Assembly: GCA_019637355.1 (NCBI GenBank)
Contig: JAHBVT010000001.1
Coordinates: forward strand, 2,263,192-2,327,191
Direction of reading: 5' to 3'
Source of the DNA: Gemmatimonadaceae bacterium
GTDB lineage: Bacteria > Gemmatimonadota > Gemmatimonadetes > Gemmatimonadales > Gemmatimonadaceae
Length of the DNA: 64,000 nt
Shown here: piece after piece, positions 39,041-47,575 of the stretch
Position numbering within the stretch: the stretch's first letter is position 1
How the letters are laid out: the number at the start of each line of letters is the position of its first letter
Made by a program: the position numbers and the translations under genes
Notes under the pieces: model-generated
Database searches by the model: none
What the model saw: only the letters and a program-made list of their open reading frames with translations
What the model was told of the DNA's origin: nothing

Positions 39041-39997
39041 TCAGATCTCCCAGTTGGACAGCGCGATGCCGCGGGTGCTGGGCGTCTCGCCGAAACCACT
39101 CAGCGTCATCCGGAGATCCGTCCAGCGCACCCGCGCGCCCTGTGCCACCAGCACGCGCAGCGCGTCAGGATACTCGCCCTGCAAGCGCAGGGCCGCGCGC
39201 AGGGCTCCGCTGCGCCGCGCCTGCGCCCGCACCGCCTGCAAGAGTGCCGGCAGGTCCGCCGCCTCCGCCACGACCAACTTGAGCACGCGGAGCTCTTCGC
39301 GCGCGCGGCCTTCCACCAACGGCACGTCGTGGAACAGCGCGTACCCGCGCAGCGCGGCGCTCTTGTCGCGCAGGAGGACCACGTCGCCGAGTCCCTGCCG
39401 CATCGTCGCGAGCAGCTCTCGACGGTAGTCGGCACCGGGACGCACCGCGTCGGTGAGCGCGGCGCAGGCGGCGAGCATCTCCTCGCGCTCGCCGCTGCCG
39501 AGGTGCCCGAGCGGCGGCGCCGGGGTGAGGCTCAGCGCCTCCAAGGTGACCGTAATCGTCAGCGGGCCGGGCAGGAATCCCATCGACGCGTAGAAACCGA
39601 TGTTGTCCATCGTGCGCGGCATCGTCTCGAGGCCGATCGTCCGGCAACCTGCGCGCTTCAGGTGCGCCGCGCCGGCCTCGACGACCTGGCGTCCCAGGCC
39701 GCGCGCCTGGAGGTCCTCCCGCACGGCCAGCGGGCCCATCCAGCCCTCGGTGCCAAGCACGTGCGCGAGATTGAAGGCGGCAATCTCGCCGGCGGCATCG
39801 CGCCAGAGCATCGCGCCCGCGCCGGCACCATCGATGGCGAAGCGCCAGATCGCCGGGTTGAGCGGCGGGACGCGCACGCCGGCCAGCCCGTCGCGGCGGT
39901 AGCGCTCGCTGAAGGCATCGGCGAACAGCGCGTTGAGCGGCGGGATGTCTTCCGGCCGGATCGCGAACGGGCCGCTGATGCGGGCGACGTCACTCAC
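39041..39997 (-). CDS. GNAT-family acetyltransferase with double domain
   Basis: 318 residues, GTG start overlapping the sbcC stop (GTGA). The first half has a GNAT core: MGPLAVREDLQARGLGRQVVEAGAAHLKRAGCRTIGLET (acetyl-CoA pyrophosphate loop QARGLGR) and GFYASMGF. The second half (about 170-300) looks like a degenerate second GNAT domain (LGDVVLLRDKSAALRGYALFHDVPLV ... LRVLKLVVAE). Substrate is unknown. As the last gene of the nurA-herA-sbcDC unit it may modify a component of that machinery or simply be cotranscribed. Confidence 0.85.
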   Translation of the reverse strand: MSDVARISGPFAIRPEDIPPLNALFADAFSERYRRDGLAGVRVPPLNPAIWRFAIDGAGAGAMLWRDAAGEIAAFNLAHVLGTEGWMGPLAVREDLQARGLGRQVVEAGAAHLKRAGCRTIGLETMPRTMDNIGFYASMGFLPGPLTITVTLEALSLTPAPPLGHLGSGEREEMLAACAALTDAVRPGADYRRELLATMRQGLGDVVLLRDKSAALRGYALFHDVPLVEGRAREELRVLKLVVAEAADLPALLQAVRAQARRSGALRAALRLQGEYPDALRVLVAQGARVRWTDLRMTLSGFGETPSTRGIALSNWEI

Positions 39998-42429
39998 GCG
40001 GCCGCCGCGTCGGCGAGCAGCGCCACGGCTGCGTCCGGTTGCGTCACCTTGGCGGCGCCGCTGGCTTCGTCCACCTCGACCTGGATCACGCGGTCGAGCC
40101 CATCGCGCACGCCTTCGATGTGCGTGATGACGATGACCTGGTCGAAACGGTCCTCGAGGCCGCGCAGTAACGCGACGACATTCTGCCGCCGCACGTCGTC
40201 GAGTGAACCGAACACTTCATCGAGCACGAGGAGCGAGAAGGCCTGCCCCGCGCGGTCGGCGATCATCTGCGAGATCGCCAGGCGCAGCACGAGGTTGGCG
40301 ACGTCCTCCTCGCCGCCGGAGATGACCGGCTTCGGCACCCCGTCCTCGAGCACCTGGATGCGGTACTTGTCGTCGAGCTCGAGTTCGGTGTAGCGGGCGT
40401 CGGTGATGGTCTTGAGCAGCTCCGAGGCGATCTCGCTGATCTCCGGACGCAACTGGTAGTTGAGCTCGTTGCGCAGCTCCGAGTACGCGCGATGCAGCTC
40501 GTCGTGCAGGCGGCGATCGTCCTCGAGGGCCTCGACCTTGGCCGCCAGGGCGTCGTAGGCGAGCCGGGCGGCGATGGCCCGCGCGTCGGCGGCGGCGGCC
40601 ACGGCACGTGCGGCGCGGGCACCCGCCGCGCGCTGCCCCGCCTCGGCGTGCGCCGCCGCCACGCCTTCGTGCAGCCGCTGCAGCTCGCCGTAATCGCCGT
40701 CGGGCACGGCCAGGCGTGCGCGGCGCTGCGTGGCCGCCTCGCGCCGGACACCGAGTTCCTCGCGCTGCCGCTCGAGGCTCTCGCGCTCGCGCAGCAGTGC
40801 CGGTTCGCGCTCGACGCGCAGGGCCAGGCGATTGGCCGCGGTCGTGCGCTCCACCAGTCGCTCGCGTTCGGCTTCGAGGCGTTCGTGTTCGGCCTTCTCG
40901 TAGCCCGAGGGCAACGAGGCCAGCTCGGCGGCCACCGCCGCCAGCCGCGTGCGCTTGGCCTCGAGGTCGGCGCGCTCCGCAACGAGGCGCTTGGCGTCGC
41001 CCTGCGCCTCGGTGAGCTTGCGCTCGTGCGCGCTCACGTCCGCCTGCAGCGACTTCCGCAGGCCGTCGAGGTGCTCGATGTCCGCGGGCATCGCCTGCAG
41101 TTGCTCGCGGCGCGTGCGGAAGTAGCTGCCGTCGGCTTCGACGGTCTCCATCTGCCGCTCCAGCGTCTCGAGCACCGCGCGGAAGTGTTCGCCCAGCGGA
41201 CGCGTGCAGGTGGGGCAGTTGCCGGCCTCACCCGCATTGAGCAGCACGTCGCGCTGATCGCGCAGGTCGGCGTAGGTCTCGCGCAACGTGCGCAGGCGCC
41301 CTTCCACGCTCTCGCGCTCCCGCACCCACTCGGTGCGCCGCAGTTCCAACTTGCCCTGCGCGTCCTCCAGCGCCTTGCGGCGTTGCTCGAGGTCGGGCGC
41401 GAGCGTCGCGACCTGCGCGGCAGAGACCTCCAGCCGCTCGACCTCCTGCGTCAATGTGGCGCAATCGTTGCCGAGGTTCGTGCGCGAGGTCTCGAGGGCA
41501 CGCCGGCGACCGTCGCTGGCGGCCAGCGCGCGTTGGGCCTCGAGTTCGGCGTCCACGCGCTCCAGCGCCTCGATGTCCGGCAACATCGGCGCGAGCTGCA
41601 GGCGCGCCTCCGCTACCTGCGCCAGCTCCTGATCCAGCTTCTCCAGCGCTCGCGCGAGGCCCATCGCTTCGCTCTCGAGCACGGCGAGCTCGCGCTCGAT
41701 GCGCTCGCGCTCCTCGCGTCCCGTCTGCGCGGCCAGCCAGCGCGGTGCCACGTCCGCCAGCGCCGCCGCCGTCTCCGTCTCGGCGCGCTCAGCATCCTCC
41801 TGCGCCTGCGTCGCATCGCGCAGGCGGGCAGCCGCCTCGGTGGTCTCCCGCAGCACGTGCTCGCGTTCGGGCATTCCCGCACGCAGGCCTTGGATCTCCG
41901 AGGCCAACTCCTTGCGCCGTGCCGCGCACAGGTCCTGCGCCACGCGCAGCTTCTCGTAGCCCAGCACCCGCGAGAGAAACTGCGCGCGCTCCGACGCCGA
42001 GAGTGCGTGCATCACCGCCAGGTCCTTCTGGCCGGTGAAGTACGTGTTGAAGAACTCCGAGCGCGTCATCCCGATGCGGCGCTGGATGAGCTCAGCCACT
42101 GCCGACACCGAGTTCGCGATTGGCTCTTCGCCGCCGTCGAGGTACAGCTCGGCCATCGAGAGCCCGCGCACGACGCGATAGCGGTGCCCGCCCAACTCGA
42201 AATCGAGCTCCACGCGCACCGGGGCGCGCGCCGGCGCCCGTTGGAAGCGGATCGAGTCGTGCGTGCCGCGCAGGATCGTCCCGCCGTAGAGCACCCAGGC
42301 GATGGCCTCGAGGATCGTCGACTTGCCCGCGCCGTTGGGCCCGATGATGCCCGTCAGCCCCGAGTCGAACTCGATCTGCGTGTCCGCGTGCTGGCGGAAA
42401 TTCACCAGCTTGAGCCGGGTGAGCCTCAT
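39994..42429 (-). CDS. sbcC: Rad50/SbcC-type SMC ATPase with zinc hook
   Basis: 811 residues. N-terminal Walker A (IIGPNGAGKSTILEAIAWVLYG) at about 30-50, long heptad coiled coils on both sides of a zinc hook CPTC near residue 404, then the C-terminal lobe with signature ISGGEEDVANLVLRLAISQMI and Walker B FSLLVLDEVFGSLDD. Dimerised by hook and heads, the protein tethers DNA ends and drives the Mre11/SbcD nuclease. Its arms are shorter than those of E. coli SbcC (about 1050) and close to archaeal Rad50 (about 880). The ATG overlaps the sbcD stop (ATGA). Confidence 0.95.
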   Translation of the reverse strand: MRLTRLKLVNFRQHADTQIEFDSGLTGIIGPNGAGKSTILEAIAWVLYGGTILRGTHDSIRFQRAPARAPVRVELDFELGGHRYRVVRGLSMAELYLDGGEEPIANSVSAVAELIQRRIGMTRSEFFNTYFTGQKDLAVMHALSASERAQFLSRVLGYEKLRVAQDLCAARRKELASEIQGLRAGMPEREHVLRETTEAAARLRDATQAQEDAERAETETAAALADVAPRWLAAQTGREERERIERELAVLESEAMGLARALEKLDQELAQVAEARLQLAPMLPDIEALERVDAELEAQRALAASDGRRRALETSRTNLGNDCATLTQEVERLEVSAAQVATLAPDLEQRRKALEDAQGKLELRRTEWVRERESVEGRLRTLRETYADLRDQRDVLLNAGEAGNCPTCTRPLGEHFRAVLETLERQMETVEADGSYFRTRREQLQAMPADIEHLDGLRKSLQADVSAHERKLTEAQGDAKRLVAERADLEAKRTRLAAVAAELASLPSGYEKAEHERLEAERERLVERTTAANRLALRVEREPALLRERESLERQREELGVRREAATQRRARLAVPDGDYGELQRLHEGVAAAHAEAGQRAAGARAARAVAAAADARAIAARLAYDALAAKVEALEDDRRLHDELHRAYSELRNELNYQLRPEISEIASELLKTITDARYTELELDDKYRIQVLEDGVPKPVISGGEEDVANLVLRLAISQMIADRAGQAFSLLVLDEVFGSLDDVRRQNVVALLRGLEDRFDQVIVITHIEGVRDGLDRVIQVEVDEASGAAKVTQPDAAVALLADAAAA

Positions 42430-43625
42430 CCGTCGCTCCCCGGCAGCGTCGCCATCGGCTCGTCGCGCTCCGCCTGTTCGAGGTAGCTGAGCCCGAGGGC
42501 AACGAACGCATCGCGGTCCACACCGGCGGCGAGATTCCGCGCCCGCAGCGACTCCCGCAGCGTGTCCGCCAGCGAGGCCCGCCGCCCCGGCGCGCCGCTG
42601 TGCTCGCGTTTCACCGTCTGCGGCTTGCGGACGTCGAGCTGGAAGTGCAACGCGCGGCGCTGCAGCTCGCGCAGTGCCTTGTGGTCCAGTTCGCGCGCGA
42701 TGTGCCGCGGCACGTCGTTCAGCACGAGGCGCAGCACCTTGCCGTCCACGCCGTCCGCCAACTTGCTGACGGCCTGCTGGATCGCCACGTCGAGGTCGGC
42801 GGCGGACTTGCCGCGTCCATCGATCGGCGACAAGTCGGCGAAGGCGCGCGACACCGGCAGCGGATGGAAGGTCTGCTTCCCCGTGACGAGGTCGCGCTCG
42901 ATCATCCCCTTGCCGGGCAGCTTGGCCGCGCGCTCGGCTGCCAGTTCGCCCCAGGGGTTCGTACTCGTGTAGTCCAGCGAACCCGAGTAGTACGCGTGCT
43001 CGGCCACCTTGGTGTACACGTGGTAGTGGCCCAGCGCGACGTAGTCCCAGCCCGGTTTCGCCACGTCCGCCAGCGGGATGCGCATCGCCGCCCGGTCAGG
43101 ATGCTCGGCACGTTCGGCCTGCGGCAACACGCCCTGCACCTCGCCGTGCATCAGCAGGACGTTGTGGCGATACGCAGGATCAGGCGCGAGATCCACGCTG
43201 CCCGGGGGCAGGTCGGGCACGGTGAGCACCGCGACGCCGAGGTCGTCGAAGGTGAAGCGCTTGGCTTCGCGGTCCGCCACGTGGATGCCCAAGGGCGCGG
43301 CGAAGAGGCGCAGGATGCAGATCGTCTCCGTGCTGCGCGGCATATCGTGGTTGCCGGCGGCGATGATCACCTTGCAATCGGGCAGTGCGTGCACCAACCG
43401 CGCGAACTGGTTGAACGCGTGCAGGATCGCCGTGTTCGTCGGGCGCACGGTGTGGAACACGTCGCCGCCGACGAGCACCAGTTGCGGCGCGAGCGCGATG
43501 ATGCGGTCCACGGCCCGCGTGAATGAGGCCGCGACGTCAGCTTCGCGTTGATTGATCCCGGCCGGCGTCGAGCGTTGGAACTGCCGGAAGCCGAGATGGA
43601 GGTCGGAGAGATGGACGAGGCGCAC
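42426..43625 (-). CDS. sbcD: Mre11/SbcD-type DNA exonuclease
   Basis: 399 residues. The metallophosphoesterase core has the five-motif order: HLSDLHLGF (motif I), LVGGDVFH (II), IIAAGNHDMPR (III), MHGEVQG (IV) and ALGHYHVY (V), all with metal ligands. It is the manganese nuclease that trims double-strand-break ends with Rad50/SbcC. The C-terminal region (about 290-370) with LDHKALRELQRRALHFQLDVRKPQ contains the Rad50-binding part. It follows herA by 59 bases and overlaps sbcC. Confidence 0.95.
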   Translation of the reverse strand: MRLVHLSDLHLGFRQFQRSTPAGINQREADVAASFTRAVDRIIALAPQLVLVGGDVFHTVRPTNTAILHAFNQFARLVHALPDCKVIIAAGNHDMPRSTETICILRLFAAPLGIHVADREAKRFTFDDLGVAVLTVPDLPPGSVDLAPDPAYRHNVLLMHGEVQGVLPQAERAEHPDRAAMRIPLADVAKPGWDYVALGHYHVYTKVAEHAYYSGSLDYTSTNPWGELAAERAAKLPGKGMIERDLVTGKQTFHPLPVSRAFADLSPIDGRGKSAADLDVAIQQAVSKLADGVDGKVLRLVLNDVPRHIARELDHKALRELQRRALHFQLDVRKPQTVKREHSGAPGRRASLADTLRESLRARNLAAGVDRDAFVALGLSYLEQAERDEPMATLPGSDG

Positions 43626-43684
43626 GCCCGGGGGAATCTACGCCCCGGGCCACTCGGCGGGAGCGGTGCGCGGGGCCGGGTGCG

Positions 43685-45649
43685 TCAGCCGCCGTAGGGG
43701 TCGTCGTCCGGCGGCGGCGGACGCAGCGGCGCAGGGCCACGGCGCGCGGCCGGCGCAGCCGCTACGCGCTTGCGCAGCTGGGCCTTGAAGAACGCTTTGA
43801 CGTCGTCCGGGCGGGTCTGCAGCGTGCGGTTGCGGGCGCGGAGGATCTCGTCCTCGCTGTCCCCGGCGAGGGCGATACAGTCCTGCACCCAGCTCAGCGT
43901 GATGGCGGGGTCGAGCCGTCGCAGGGCCTTGGTCACCGCCGCGTCCAGCGGCAGGTCCTCGGCGGGCGGAAAGCGCTCCACGCCCTCGCGCCCGGTGAGC
44001 ACCGCCGGCCGCGGGAACCGCACGAAGATCGGCTGCCCGAAGTGCGGATGCCGCACCATCAGCTGGCCCTTCTCCAGCGTCGCCAGCCGCCCTTTGATGG
44101 CGGGGGCCAGCGTCTGGTAGCCCGGCGTGGCCAGCTCGTCCGGATCCATCCGCCCGAACACCGCCGTGCCGCTGTTGCCCACCACGCGGCGGTGGACCTG
44201 CGAGCGGAACTGCTGGGCGCCGAAGAGCACGAGGCCCAAGTAGCGCCCACGCTCGGCGATATCGAGCAGCATCTTGCGCACGTAGGTGTCAGGGCCGTCG
44301 GCCGGGGCGTACTTGTTGAGTTCGTCCACGAACACGACGACCTGCGAGACGCCCAACTGCCGCTTCTCGAGATGCTCGCGCAGCTGCGAGACGACACGCG
44401 CGAACACGAGGTCCTGCGCGTCCTCCTCGAGGTTGGCCACGTCCACGACGTACACCGCGCGGTCCTCGAACTCGCCGAAGGGCAGGTCGCTCACCGAGCC
44501 GTCGTCGGTGACGAGGCCACGGCAGCGCGTCGAGATGTTGCTCAGCCGGTTGCGCACCTTCCGGATCGTCGCGACGTGGTGCGTGCGCCACACGTCGGCG
44601 TTCTTGCCTTCCATCCCGCGCAGCAACGTCGAGAACCAGCGTTCGAGGTCGGCGAAGCTCCGGACCTCGATGCCGGCCTCGAAGAGCGGATCGGTGAACA
44701 CCTGGTCGAGGACGCGCTCCTTGATGAAGTCGATCAGCGCGTCGGCCTTGGCGTCGACGTCGTCCTTGTTGAGCAGCACCTCGGCGTACTGCAGCGTCTC
44801 CCGCAGGCCCCAGGTCAGCGGCTGGACGTTGTCCTGCAATGCGTCGTTCGACCGCAGCGTCGCCAACTGGAAACCCTTGGCCGTCCACGGTGCGAAGTAG
44901 CGCACGTTGGTGAAGGGCGCGGCCGGCACGCCCATCGTCTCGTACATCGTGCGTTCGTCGTCGGAGAGCGCTGACGCCGGTTGGTCGAGGAAGCACAGGT
45001 CCGGGCCCTTCACGTTGAAGCACACCGCGGCGACGCCGCCCTTCTCGGCCGGGAAGTGCGCGAAGATGCTGCCCAACAGCCATTCGACCGCGCTGGTCTT
45101 GGTCGCGAGGCCGGAGACGCCGCTGATGCTGAGGTGCGCTGCCTCGGGACCGAGCAAGAAATCAGCATCGAGGTGCACCGCCGCCTGCGTGCCACCGGCC
45201 CGGTACAGCCCGATCGGGATGCCGCGCGAGGCGCCGGGCTGCAGGTAGCTCTCCATCCGCAGCGCCGCCTGCACGTCGGCCTCGGTGGCCAGGTGCACCG
45301 TGCCCATCGGCACCGGCTGCAGCGGCTCCTCGGGTACGTGGCGGAGGACGGCGGCCGTGTAGAGCCGGATCTCGGTGCGCTCGGTCGGCGCGATGGCGCT
45401 GCGGCCGGGCACCCCGTCGGCACCGAGCACGTCGTGCAGCGGCGTCTGCAGGTCCGTGTAGCCGAAACCTTCGGTGACGACGCCGTACACCACGGGCAGC
45501 ACTCCGCCCACGGGACGCTCCGACTCCACGCGCACGATGGTCCCGATGCCCACCGGGGCGTCGAGGGCGGTCCAAAAGTGGAACTCGTGCGGCGTATTCG
45601 GCTTGCGCTCAGTGGCGACGACGCGGCCGAGGATTGGTGGGGCGGTCAT
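43685..45649 (-). CDS. herA: HerA-type hexameric DNA translocase
   Basis: 654 residues from MTAPPILGRVVATERKPN. The N-terminal HAS-barrel (LGRVV ... VGIGTIVRVES ... VYGVVTEGF) precedes the FtsK/HerA ATPase. The Walker A region reads ISGVSGLATKTSAVEWLL near 180: the Lys-Thr is kept but the usual Gly before Lys is Thr. Walker B is VVVFVDELNKYAP near 438, followed by LVLFGAQQFRSQVHRRVVGNSGT, the sensor segment. HerA translocates on duplex DNA and activates NurA in end resection. The start was chosen by the HAS barrel; the ATG overlaps the nurA stop (ATGA). Confidence 0.92.
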   Translation of the reverse strand: MTAPPILGRVVATERKPNTPHEFHFWTALDAPVGIGTIVRVESERPVGGVLPVVYGVVTEGFGYTDLQTPLHDVLGADGVPGRSAIAPTERTEIRLYTAAVLRHVPEEPLQPVPMGTVHLATEADVQAALRMESYLQPGASRGIPIGLYRAGGTQAAVHLDADFLLGPEAAHLSISGVSGLATKTSAVEWLLGSIFAHFPAEKGGVAAVCFNVKGPDLCFLDQPASALSDDERTMYETMGVPAAPFTNVRYFAPWTAKGFQLATLRSNDALQDNVQPLTWGLRETLQYAEVLLNKDDVDAKADALIDFIKERVLDQVFTDPLFEAGIEVRSFADLERWFSTLLRGMEGKNADVWRTHHVATIRKVRNRLSNISTRCRGLVTDDGSVSDLPFGEFEDRAVYVVDVANLEEDAQDLVFARVVSQLREHLEKRQLGVSQVVVFVDELNKYAPADGPDTYVRKMLLDIAERGRYLGLVLFGAQQFRSQVHRRVVGNSGTAVFGRMDPDELATPGYQTLAPAIKGRLATLEKGQLMVRHPHFGQPIFVRFPRPAVLTGREGVERFPPAEDLPLDAAVTKALRRLDPAITLSWVQDCIALAGDSEDEILRARNRTLQTRPDDVKAFFKAQLRKRVAAAPAARRGPAPLRPPPPDDDPYGG

Positions 45650-46653
45650 TGGAGGATGGCCGTAAGGTACTGCTCGCACTCGCGGATGCCGTAGACCATC
45701 ACGTCCCAGCGGGCGTCCGGCAGTGCGACCGGTGCGCGCTCGGCAAGCAGCCAGCGCGAGACAAGGTCGGCGCGTGCGGTGATGTCCGCCGCGGCTTCGA
45801 GCGCAACCTCGACACGCACTAGGCCGAAGAACGGACCGCGCGCGCCGACGTCGCGTAGGCGGAGGTACCAGGTGGCCACCGCGGTGCGCCTCGGCGAACT
45901 CAGCGCCATCGCCGTCGTGCGCTGGCCCTCGCGCAGTCCGAGGACCACATCCACCGACTCTCCGACGGCATACAGCGTGCGGTGTGACTTCACCACGCCG
46001 ACTACCAGCGGGCTCTTCGCCACGGCCTCGGTGCCGGCGATGCCGCCGTCCACGAGCAAGGGCTCGCGGGCGTCCGCCGTCCACGCGAGGGCCAGGGCCT
46101 GCTCGCAGCGTTCGCGCTCGCGCTGCACCGCCGTCAGGGCTCGCGCGGCGAGGTCACCCGGATGGCGCGGCAACGCTGCGCCGGCCTCGAGAGCCTCAAG
46201 CGAATCCACCACCGCGACCTGAGCCCGCAGGGCCTGGACCAGCGCCGCATCCACGAGCGGCACGGGCAGGTACAGCGCGTGCGAGCGCAGGGCCTCGCCC
46301 CAGGTGACGAGCTTGCGGTCTCGGCGCTCACGCACCGCCGCCGCCACGGCACCGTGCACTAGAGGCACGCCGCGATGGTGCGCGCGGACCGTGGAGCGCT
46401 GGATTCCGTCTAGGAACCCGCCGATCGCGACCACCGGCGCGTCGGTGATGCTGCGCGCCTCGACCGCGCCGCCCTCGATGCTGGCGGCCGCCTCCACCCG
46501 AGGCGGTGCCTCGGCCTCGCGCTGCGCCTCCAGCGTCGGCCCGCCACCCTGGGCCGCGACACCTCCGTCACGAAGTGCGGACAGGATGGCGCGCGACGTT
46601 GCCGCCCCACCCGCCGGGACGTAGCTTCCGCCTATGCGCCGTTCCGCGATCAT
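45646..46653 (-). CDS. nurA: NurA-domain nuclease
   Basis: 335 residues from MIAERRIGGSYVPAGG. The RNase-H-like NurA fold is indicated by VVAIGGFLDGIQRSTVRA near 100 (first catalytic Asp in LDGIQR), the basic/acidic block RERRDRKLVTWGE, and EPLLVDGGIAGTEAVAKSPLVVGVVKSH near 205-230 with a second conserved Asp. The end DVMVYGIRECEQYLTAIL is helical. NurA is a 5'-3' exonuclease that works with HerA. Identification rests on these motifs and on the overlap with herA. Its 5' end overlaps the start of a divergent lipoprotein gene by 20 bases. Confidence 0.85.
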   Translation of the reverse strand: MIAERRIGGSYVPAGGAATSRAILSALRDGGVAAQGGGPTLEAQREAEAPPRVEAAASIEGGAVEARSITDAPVVAIGGFLDGIQRSTVRAHHRGVPLVHGAVAAAVRERRDRKLVTWGEALRSHALYLPVPLVDAALVQALRAQVAVVDSLEALEAGAALPRHPGDLAARALTAVQRERERCEQALALAWTADAREPLLVDGGIAGTEAVAKSPLVVGVVKSHRTLYAVGESVDVVLGLREGQRTTAMALSSPRRTAVATWYLRLRDVGARGPFFGLVRVEVALEAAADITARADLVSRWLLAERAPVALPDARWDVMVYGIRECEQYLTAILQ

Positions 46654-47575
46654 CGCGAGCATCCTACTCCTCCTCTCCGCCTGCGACAAGCAGGAGCAGC
46701 CGCCGCGGAGCACGGAGGTTCGTGAGCTCACCGACCTTTCGGGTTCTCCGACGCTCCTCTTCACGGTCTTCGGACCGGTAGAGACGCCCAAGCTCGCGCC
46801 ATTGGCCGTGGTCCGAAGCGGCGGTCTCGAACCGCTCGTGCTCGATGAAGCCGGCTGGCAGCAGCTGGATGCCCAGTATTTCGCCGCCGGGATGACCTAC
46901 CCCGTGTACCGCAACGGCGCCGAGGTGGGCAACATCCGCATCGTCCGCGGGATGTGGCCGGCCGACTCCGCCCCGCTGTACGAGGTGCCGGGCTGCGCCC
47001 GCGTCGTCCCGCACGCGCTGGGGTCGCTTGAATCCACGCGGCAGTTCGAGGAGACGGTCGAGCTGCTCGCCGCCACTTCGCCGCTGCCGCAGCCGACGGA
47101 TACGCGCCCGCTGCCGGCAAACCCCGAGGCGCAGGGCCTTACGCTGGCCTCTGCCGTCGCGGCAGCTGCCGGCGTCGGTCCGGAGGACCTCAGCAGCCTC
47201 GACTACCACGCGCGCTGGCTCCGCACCGGGGCCGGCTTCAGCAAACGCACCCTGCTCGCGTCGTATATCGACCCCAGCGCCGGCGACCTCGGGCCGGGTG
47301 CGGGCAACACCGCCGTGCTCGTGCTCCTCGCCGAAGACTCAGCGGGCACCTTCCAGACCAGCTACCAGCACGCGCGCAGCGGCGAGGCGCGGTCGGTCGA
47401 GTTCCGCCGACTGGTCAACTATGCCGACCTCAGCGGAGACGGCGTGGCCGAGCTGGTGATGGAAACCTGGCGCTACGCCGGTATTCCGGAACTCGTCGTG
47501 ATGCGGTACGGCAACGGCCGCTGGACGCAGTCCTTCGGCGTCAGCCAGGAGTGGTGCACGGACCGTCTGCGCTAG
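46634..47575 (+). CDS. Lipoprotein of unknown function
   Basis: 313 residues. MRRSAIIASILLLLSAC gives a signal peptide with lipobox LLSAC. The mature chain is mixed alpha/beta; VNYADLSGDGVAELVMETWRYAG near the C-terminus resembles an FG-GAP/VCBS-type calcium loop (DLSGDG.AEL), so metal-dependent folding is possible. No family was recognised. Its start lies inside the opposite-strand nurA start, so the two promoters must overlap. Confidence 0.7.
   Translation: MRRSAIIASILLLLSACDKQEQPPRSTEVRELTDLSGSPTLLFTVFGPVETPKLAPLAVVRSGGLEPLVLDEAGWQQLDAQYFAAGMTYPVYRNGAEVGNIRIVRGMWPADSAPLYEVPGCARVVPHALGSLESTRQFEETVELLAATSPLPQPTDTRPLPANPEAQGLTLASAVAAAAGVGPEDLSSLDYHARWLRTGAGFSKRTLLASYIDPSAGDLGPGAGNTAVLVLLAEDSAGTFQTSYQHARSGEARSVEFRRLVNYADLSGDGVAELVMETWRYAGIPELVVMRYGNGRWTQSFGVSQEWCTDRLR

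Follow-up and report, generated by a model that had tools for sequence, protein, structure and literature searches.

A nurA-herA-mre11-rad50 operon in Gemmatimonadaceae, a probable counterpart of RecBCD in DNA end processing

RecBCD or AddAB does the end processing in most bacteria. The question raised by a locus of a Gemmatimonadaceae bacterium, in which genes for NurA, HerA, Mre11 and Rad50 lie side by side, is whether these four proteins do this work in its genome (3.15 Mb in three contigs, 96.5% complete). The window, that is, the whole stretch of 64,000 nucleotides analysed, corresponds to bases 2263192-2327191 of contig 1. In transcription order, the locus contains:

nurA, 45646..46653, minus strand: 335 aa nuclease with an RNase H-like fold (family profile, predicted fold, aligned residues)
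herA, 43685..45649, minus strand: 654 aa predicted HerA-FtsK hexameric DNA translocase (phmmer, profile, motifs)
mre11, 42426..43625, minus strand: 399 aa phosphodiesterase (Pfam, NCBIfam, PDB, motifs)
rad50, 39994..42429, minus strand: 811 aa ABC/SMC ATPase (NCBIfam, PDB, motifs)
GNAT acetyltransferase, 39041..39997, minus strand: 318 aa (Pfam Acetyltransf_1, 3.4e-10)

An earlier reading made from the letters of the DNA (the sequence-only reading) had described four co-directional minus-strand genes, and they are present from 46653 to 39994, joined by 4-base overlaps or short gaps. The nurA/herA and mre11/rad50 junctions are ATGA overlaps, and mre11 starts with GTG after a gap of 59 bases behind herA. 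The GNAT gene at the end of the operon does overlap rad50 (GTGA); it accompanies mre11-rad50 across the order, standing behind rad50 in most of the order's loci and in three of its families, also where nurA-herA is missing. For nurA, an in-frame ATG upstream at 46662, preceded by GGAGGAG, could serve just as well as the start. A lipoprotein-like gene that diverges from nurA on the plus strand (46634-47575) shares its first bases with the start of nurA (46634-46662). Because G+C and third-position G+C of the operon are like those of the neighbouring genes, a recent foreign origin is judged unlikely.

The names nurA, herA, mre11 and rad50, already assigned in the sequence-only reading, are borne out by profiles, the NurA fold and motifs. 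That reading had staked itself on the nurA frame matching the NurA profile, and here the outcome is divided: the single sequence finds no match in Pfam, NCBIfam or the PDB, and the Pfam NurA model finds none in the whole genome, whereas a profile of 45 members (the window NurA and 44 collected homologues, nearly all adjoining herA in relatives) matches the solved NurA of D. radiodurans (7f6d_H, E 4.1e-21) and T. maritima (1zup, TM1739, E 2.6e-12). Pfam PF09376 is touched by nine of the 45 members (best 4.2e-5), the window NurA not being among them. The AlphaFold (AF2) model has a pLDDT of 91, with low confidence at residues 1-20, and its top Foldseek matches are 7f6d_G (3.7e-12) and 1zup (1.9e-10), at probability 1.00. 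Residues D82, K222 and R315 align with D53, K201 and R309 of D. radiodurans NurA (drNurA), where mutation of each abolishes nuclease activity (PMC9960219); E184 and D202 are likewise invariant in the family alignment. The N-terminal Trp (W8) or pin sequence of bacterial NurA has no aligned counterpart in the N-terminus of the window NurA. Since archaeal NurA has no pin either (PMC9960219), this feature is not a hallmark of all NurA. The 335 aa frame is nurA, an identity settled only by family profile and fold. NurA evolves much faster than HerA: identity to a congener is 68%, against 91% for HerA.

HerA is closest to its bacterial homologues. The window protein matches D. radiodurans HerA (drHerA; 7f6d_B, phmmer E 2.1e-47), a HerA profile matches 7f6d at 3.5e-164, and the archaeal HerA model NF040937 reaches an E-value of 0.021. 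Its Walker A motif is atypical (GVSGLATKT, K184), Walker B is D442-E443, and the C-terminal tail ends in DDPYGG; K184, D442 and E443 are invariant across 21 aligned HerA. Among named organisms, its closest relatives come from a MAG of Gemmatimonas sp. (91%) and from Gemmatimonas phototrophica (85%), which places the bacterium in Gemmatimonas or very close to it. An archaeal origin of HerA and NurA was rejected, as their best matches are Deinococcus and Thermotoga proteins and not archaeal models. HerA of the order forms a well-separated clade (100/100 support), common to Gemmatimonadales, Armatimonadota, two Cyanobacteriota and Melainabacteria and marked by GVSGLATKT, GRMDxDELATPGY and a C-terminal tail often ending in DDPY. 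Throughout this clade, the drHerA pore arginines R495 and R552, which have been linked to translocation, are replaced. In other families of the same class, HerA is about 47% identical to drHerA and linked to SbcD and SbcC. By sequence, bacterial HerA comprises two types, each with its own Mre11-Rad50 or SbcD-SbcC partners.

Mre11 (Pfam Metallophos, 4.7e-10) scores 8.6e-20 with SbcD TIGR00619 and 3e-19 with Mre11_Sulfo, matches M. jannaschii Mre11 in the PDB (7e-13) and has all five phosphodiesterase motifs (SDLHLG, GGDVF, GNHD, LMHGE, LGHYH). Rad50, the product of the sole SbcC/Rad50 gene of the genome, fits the NCBIfam Rad50 model better (PRK03918, 2.5e-56, vs SbcC, 3.5e-28), matches M. jannaschii Rad50 in the PDB and carries Walker A (GPNGAGKST), a CPTC zinc hook at 405, the SGGEE signature and Walker B (LLVLDEVFG). 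NCBIfam scores separate the partners of the two HerA types: Rad50 of the window type gives 180-252 bits with archaeal Rad50 and 97-127 with SbcC, and the partners of the other type give 59-78 and 243-285 bits, respectively. The archaeal flavour therefore resides in Mre11-Rad50, not in HerA-NurA, and on model scores the window Mre11 and Rad50 resemble archaeal Mre11/Rad50 at least as much as SbcD/SbcC. What had been called an archaeal-style operon keeps that description for Mre11-Rad50 and loses it for HerA and NurA, which belong to a bacterial subfamily. A Rad50 tree splits Rad50-type from SbcC-type proteins (100/97); it includes a single archaeal sequence and has long branches, and so does not give the direction of transfer. 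In a 1.8 Mb genome of the same genus without nurA-herA, Rad50 has lost part of its coil or is split over two frames (locus L134, 3633-5556).

The gene set is not special to this bacterium: the cluster is spread across Gemmatimonadales and Armatimonadota, and related clusters, with differing gene orders, have representatives in six or more bacterial phyla, including Cyanobacteriota, Actinomycetota, Chloroflexota and Bacillota. The order NurA-HerA-Mre11-Rad50 is conserved in 51 of the 80 named loci, two of them from Armatimonadota (many of the others are short contigs); a third Armatimonadota locus keeps HerA-Mre11-Rad50. Conservation in dozens of genomes means that this order is not due to chance. 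Throughout the family, the locus sits at one and the same place, among the core genes lrp, PTPS and FolE. The same four functions are clustered on plasmids of Sphaerospermopsis, Chlorohelix, Streptomyces and Pontibacillus. On the Pontibacillus megaplasmid (L244, 869-7478), annotated NurA, ATP-binding protein, metallophosphoesterase and short SMC ATPase follow the window's order; the profiles built here pick up neither its NurA nor its HerA. Genes for ImmA/IrrE metallopeptidases adjoin the NurA-HerA-SbcD-SbcC clusters of two plasmids (L139, 2843-3577; L140, 3775-4947). A viral scan gave a single distant HerA locus, and the literature search on HerA-NurA in Gemmatimonas or Armatimonadetes yielded no paper on the subject.

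A search for recBCD, addAB and adnAB supports a role of the operon in place of these enzymes. By family searches of the 96.5% complete genome, there is no PDDEXK_1 nuclease domain (RecB, AddAB, AdnAB; PF12705), no match to RecC (PF04257) or RecB (TIGR00609), and no Ku; the UvrD-type helicases are frames of 905 aa or less. The main role in processing double-strand breaks that the sequence-only reading had proposed is likely. Relatives add to this. Of 53 family genomes sampled, HerA is present in 47 and absent from six; RecB and RecC occur together in all six HerA-less genomes and in seven of the 47 others (Fisher p 7.5e-5, uncorrected for kinship). In five of these genomes the locus runs lrp, lipoprotein gene, DUF6263-like gene, mre11, rad50, GNAT, nurA-herA having dropped out cleanly; in the sixth (G028), mre11, rad50 and GNAT remain. 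Rad50 is retained in all six, and according to the Rad50 tree nurA-herA was lost on four or more separate occasions, always in RecBCD-bearing genomes. Such repeated loss supports RecBCD-equivalence and suggests that NurA-HerA and RecBCD do the same job. The two are not mutually exclusive, because seven family genomes have both and about seven further HerA-positive ones carry AddAB-like pairs (one confirmed by profile).

The same losses can be read differently. NurA-HerA and Mre11-Rad50 might be neighbours by descent only and act in separate pathways: nurA-herA can go while mre11-rad50 and GNAT stay, and a gene for a secreted or lipoprotein-like protein with weak similarity to DUF6263, absent from the window, splits herA from mre11 in many relatives (L036, 8123-9076; L037, 5239-6231; L035, 4866-5687; L039, 5962-6819). 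This gene persists where nurA-herA has been lost. However, the linkage recurs in several phyla with differing gene orders and Sulfolobus Mre11 interacts with HerA (PMC2288612), so that separate pathways seem improbable. Similarly doubtful is a purely accessory role, in which RecJ and RecQ (with RecFOR) would carry out the main resection and NurA-HerA would only adjust it, as proposed for Deinococcus. The genome does encode RecJ, RecQ and RecO, RecJ-RecQ is the main D. radiodurans system according to its authors (PMC9960219), and three relatives from other families (G013, G038, G043) live without HerA, RecB or RecC. Against such a minor part, 47 of the 53 family genomes keep nurA-herA, and where it has been lost in the family, repeatedly, the genome has RecBCD, a pattern suggesting that RecBCD can take over what NurA-HerA does.

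The operon as a whole probably is a RecBCD-equivalent, two-engine module that would process double-strand DNA ends. Work on homologues describes a hexamer of HerA that passes duplex DNA on to a dimer of NurA, where the 5′ strand is cut, and D. radiodurans NurA-HerA resects 5′ strands in vitro (PMC9960219). Here, Mre11-Rad50 would bind the broken end first and clear or nick it. A HerA hexamer would then thread the duplex and drive it into the NurA dimer with which it is expected to form a complex, and NurA may cut the 5′ strand, leaving a 3′ tail for RecA, onto which RecFOR would load it; the polarity, the substrates and the role in the cell are inferred. NurA-HerA would take the place of RecBCD/AddAB and become dispensable once RecBCD is present. 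The catalytic motifs of all four proteins are intact, which supports this reading; counted against it are the replaced pore arginines of HerA, the possibility that RecJ and RecQ resect alone, the co-occurrence of HerA with RecBCD or AddAB-like genes, the three relatives devoid of both HerA and RecB/RecC, and a 2026 study of archaeal HerA-NurA, in which both strands were cut and a role in resection was doubted (PMC12977600).

NurA-HerA might instead serve chiefly to destroy foreign DNA that is linear, as RecBCD does with phage DNA, or in the manner of Sir2-HerA or HerA-DUF4297; a defence-linked module had also been considered in the sequence-only reading. HerA pairs with defence nucleases elsewhere, as cited in PMC12977600, PADLOC matches mad8 (1.1e-11) in HerA and mad3 (5e-33) and LmuB (9e-33) in the SMC-type ATPase, and RecBCD, with which NurA-HerA alternates, degrades phage DNA too. 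Yet the locus keeps its place among lrp, PTPS and FolE through the family, its base composition is that of its neighbours, and NurA matches no PADLOC family. The PADLOC matches cover ATPase parts only, and no full MADS or Lamassu gene set was found in a defence context. A defence island was rejected on this context, the core-genome position being fixed and NurA lacking a PADLOC match; position lends the idea no support, and defence as the chief function is very unlikely.

A broader proposal, on which the evidence is evenly balanced, is that a separate NurA-HerA lineage (Gemmatimonadales, Armatimonadota, some Cyanobacteriota/Melainabacteria), together with Rad50-type Mre11-Rad50, is equivalent to RecBCD, and that gain of RecBCD repeatedly makes NurA-HerA dispensable. 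If so, nature has provided a set of swaps against a constant Mre11-Rad50 background. Recent papers are split between resection of broken ends and destruction of foreign DNA as the task of HerA-NurA, and confine bacterial HerA-NurA to few groups, such as Deinococcus-Thermus, a range that Gemmatimonas and its relatives widen. These relatives offer matched genomes that have or lack nurA-herA and have or lack RecBCD, and Rad50 is kept in every one (as is Mre11 where the locus was read), so that the role is testable by deletion and RecBCD swap-in.

The system thus described varies a known kind of machine, and its added interest lies in the repeated loss of nurA-herA on a RecBCD background with Mre11-Rad50 staying. 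RecBCD and AddAB, which alternate with NurA-HerA in relatives, likely have the same role (ATP-driven end processing before RecA), but are unrelated proteins and none was detected in the window genome. Bacterial NurA-HerA-SbcD-SbcC clusters (other Gemmatimonadota, Streptomyces, Chlorohelix, Sphaerospermopsis) bring together the same four functions, with partners of the SbcC/SbcD type (SbcC mostly 900-1100 aa) and a Deinococcus-like HerA, except for a very divergent Chlorohelix copy, whereas the window HerA belongs to its separate clade. The D. radiodurans pair (7f6d; PMC9960219) shares the HerA family, the unusual Walker A (G-x-SG-x-ATKT), Walker B (DELNKYAP), the adjacency of nurA and herA and the NurA residues D53, K201 and R309, all conserved in the window. 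In contrast, the window HerA is about 29% identical, lacks R495/R552 and has a C-terminal tail, its NurA lacks the N-terminal W8/pin by alignment, and the pair shares one operon with mre11-rad50. The archaeal rad50-mre11-herA-nurA clusters (PMC2288612, PMC12977600) differ in that the window HerA and NurA are of bacterial sequence families and a GNAT gene follows; they combine the same four functions, and the window Rad50 scores best under archaeal Rad50 models.
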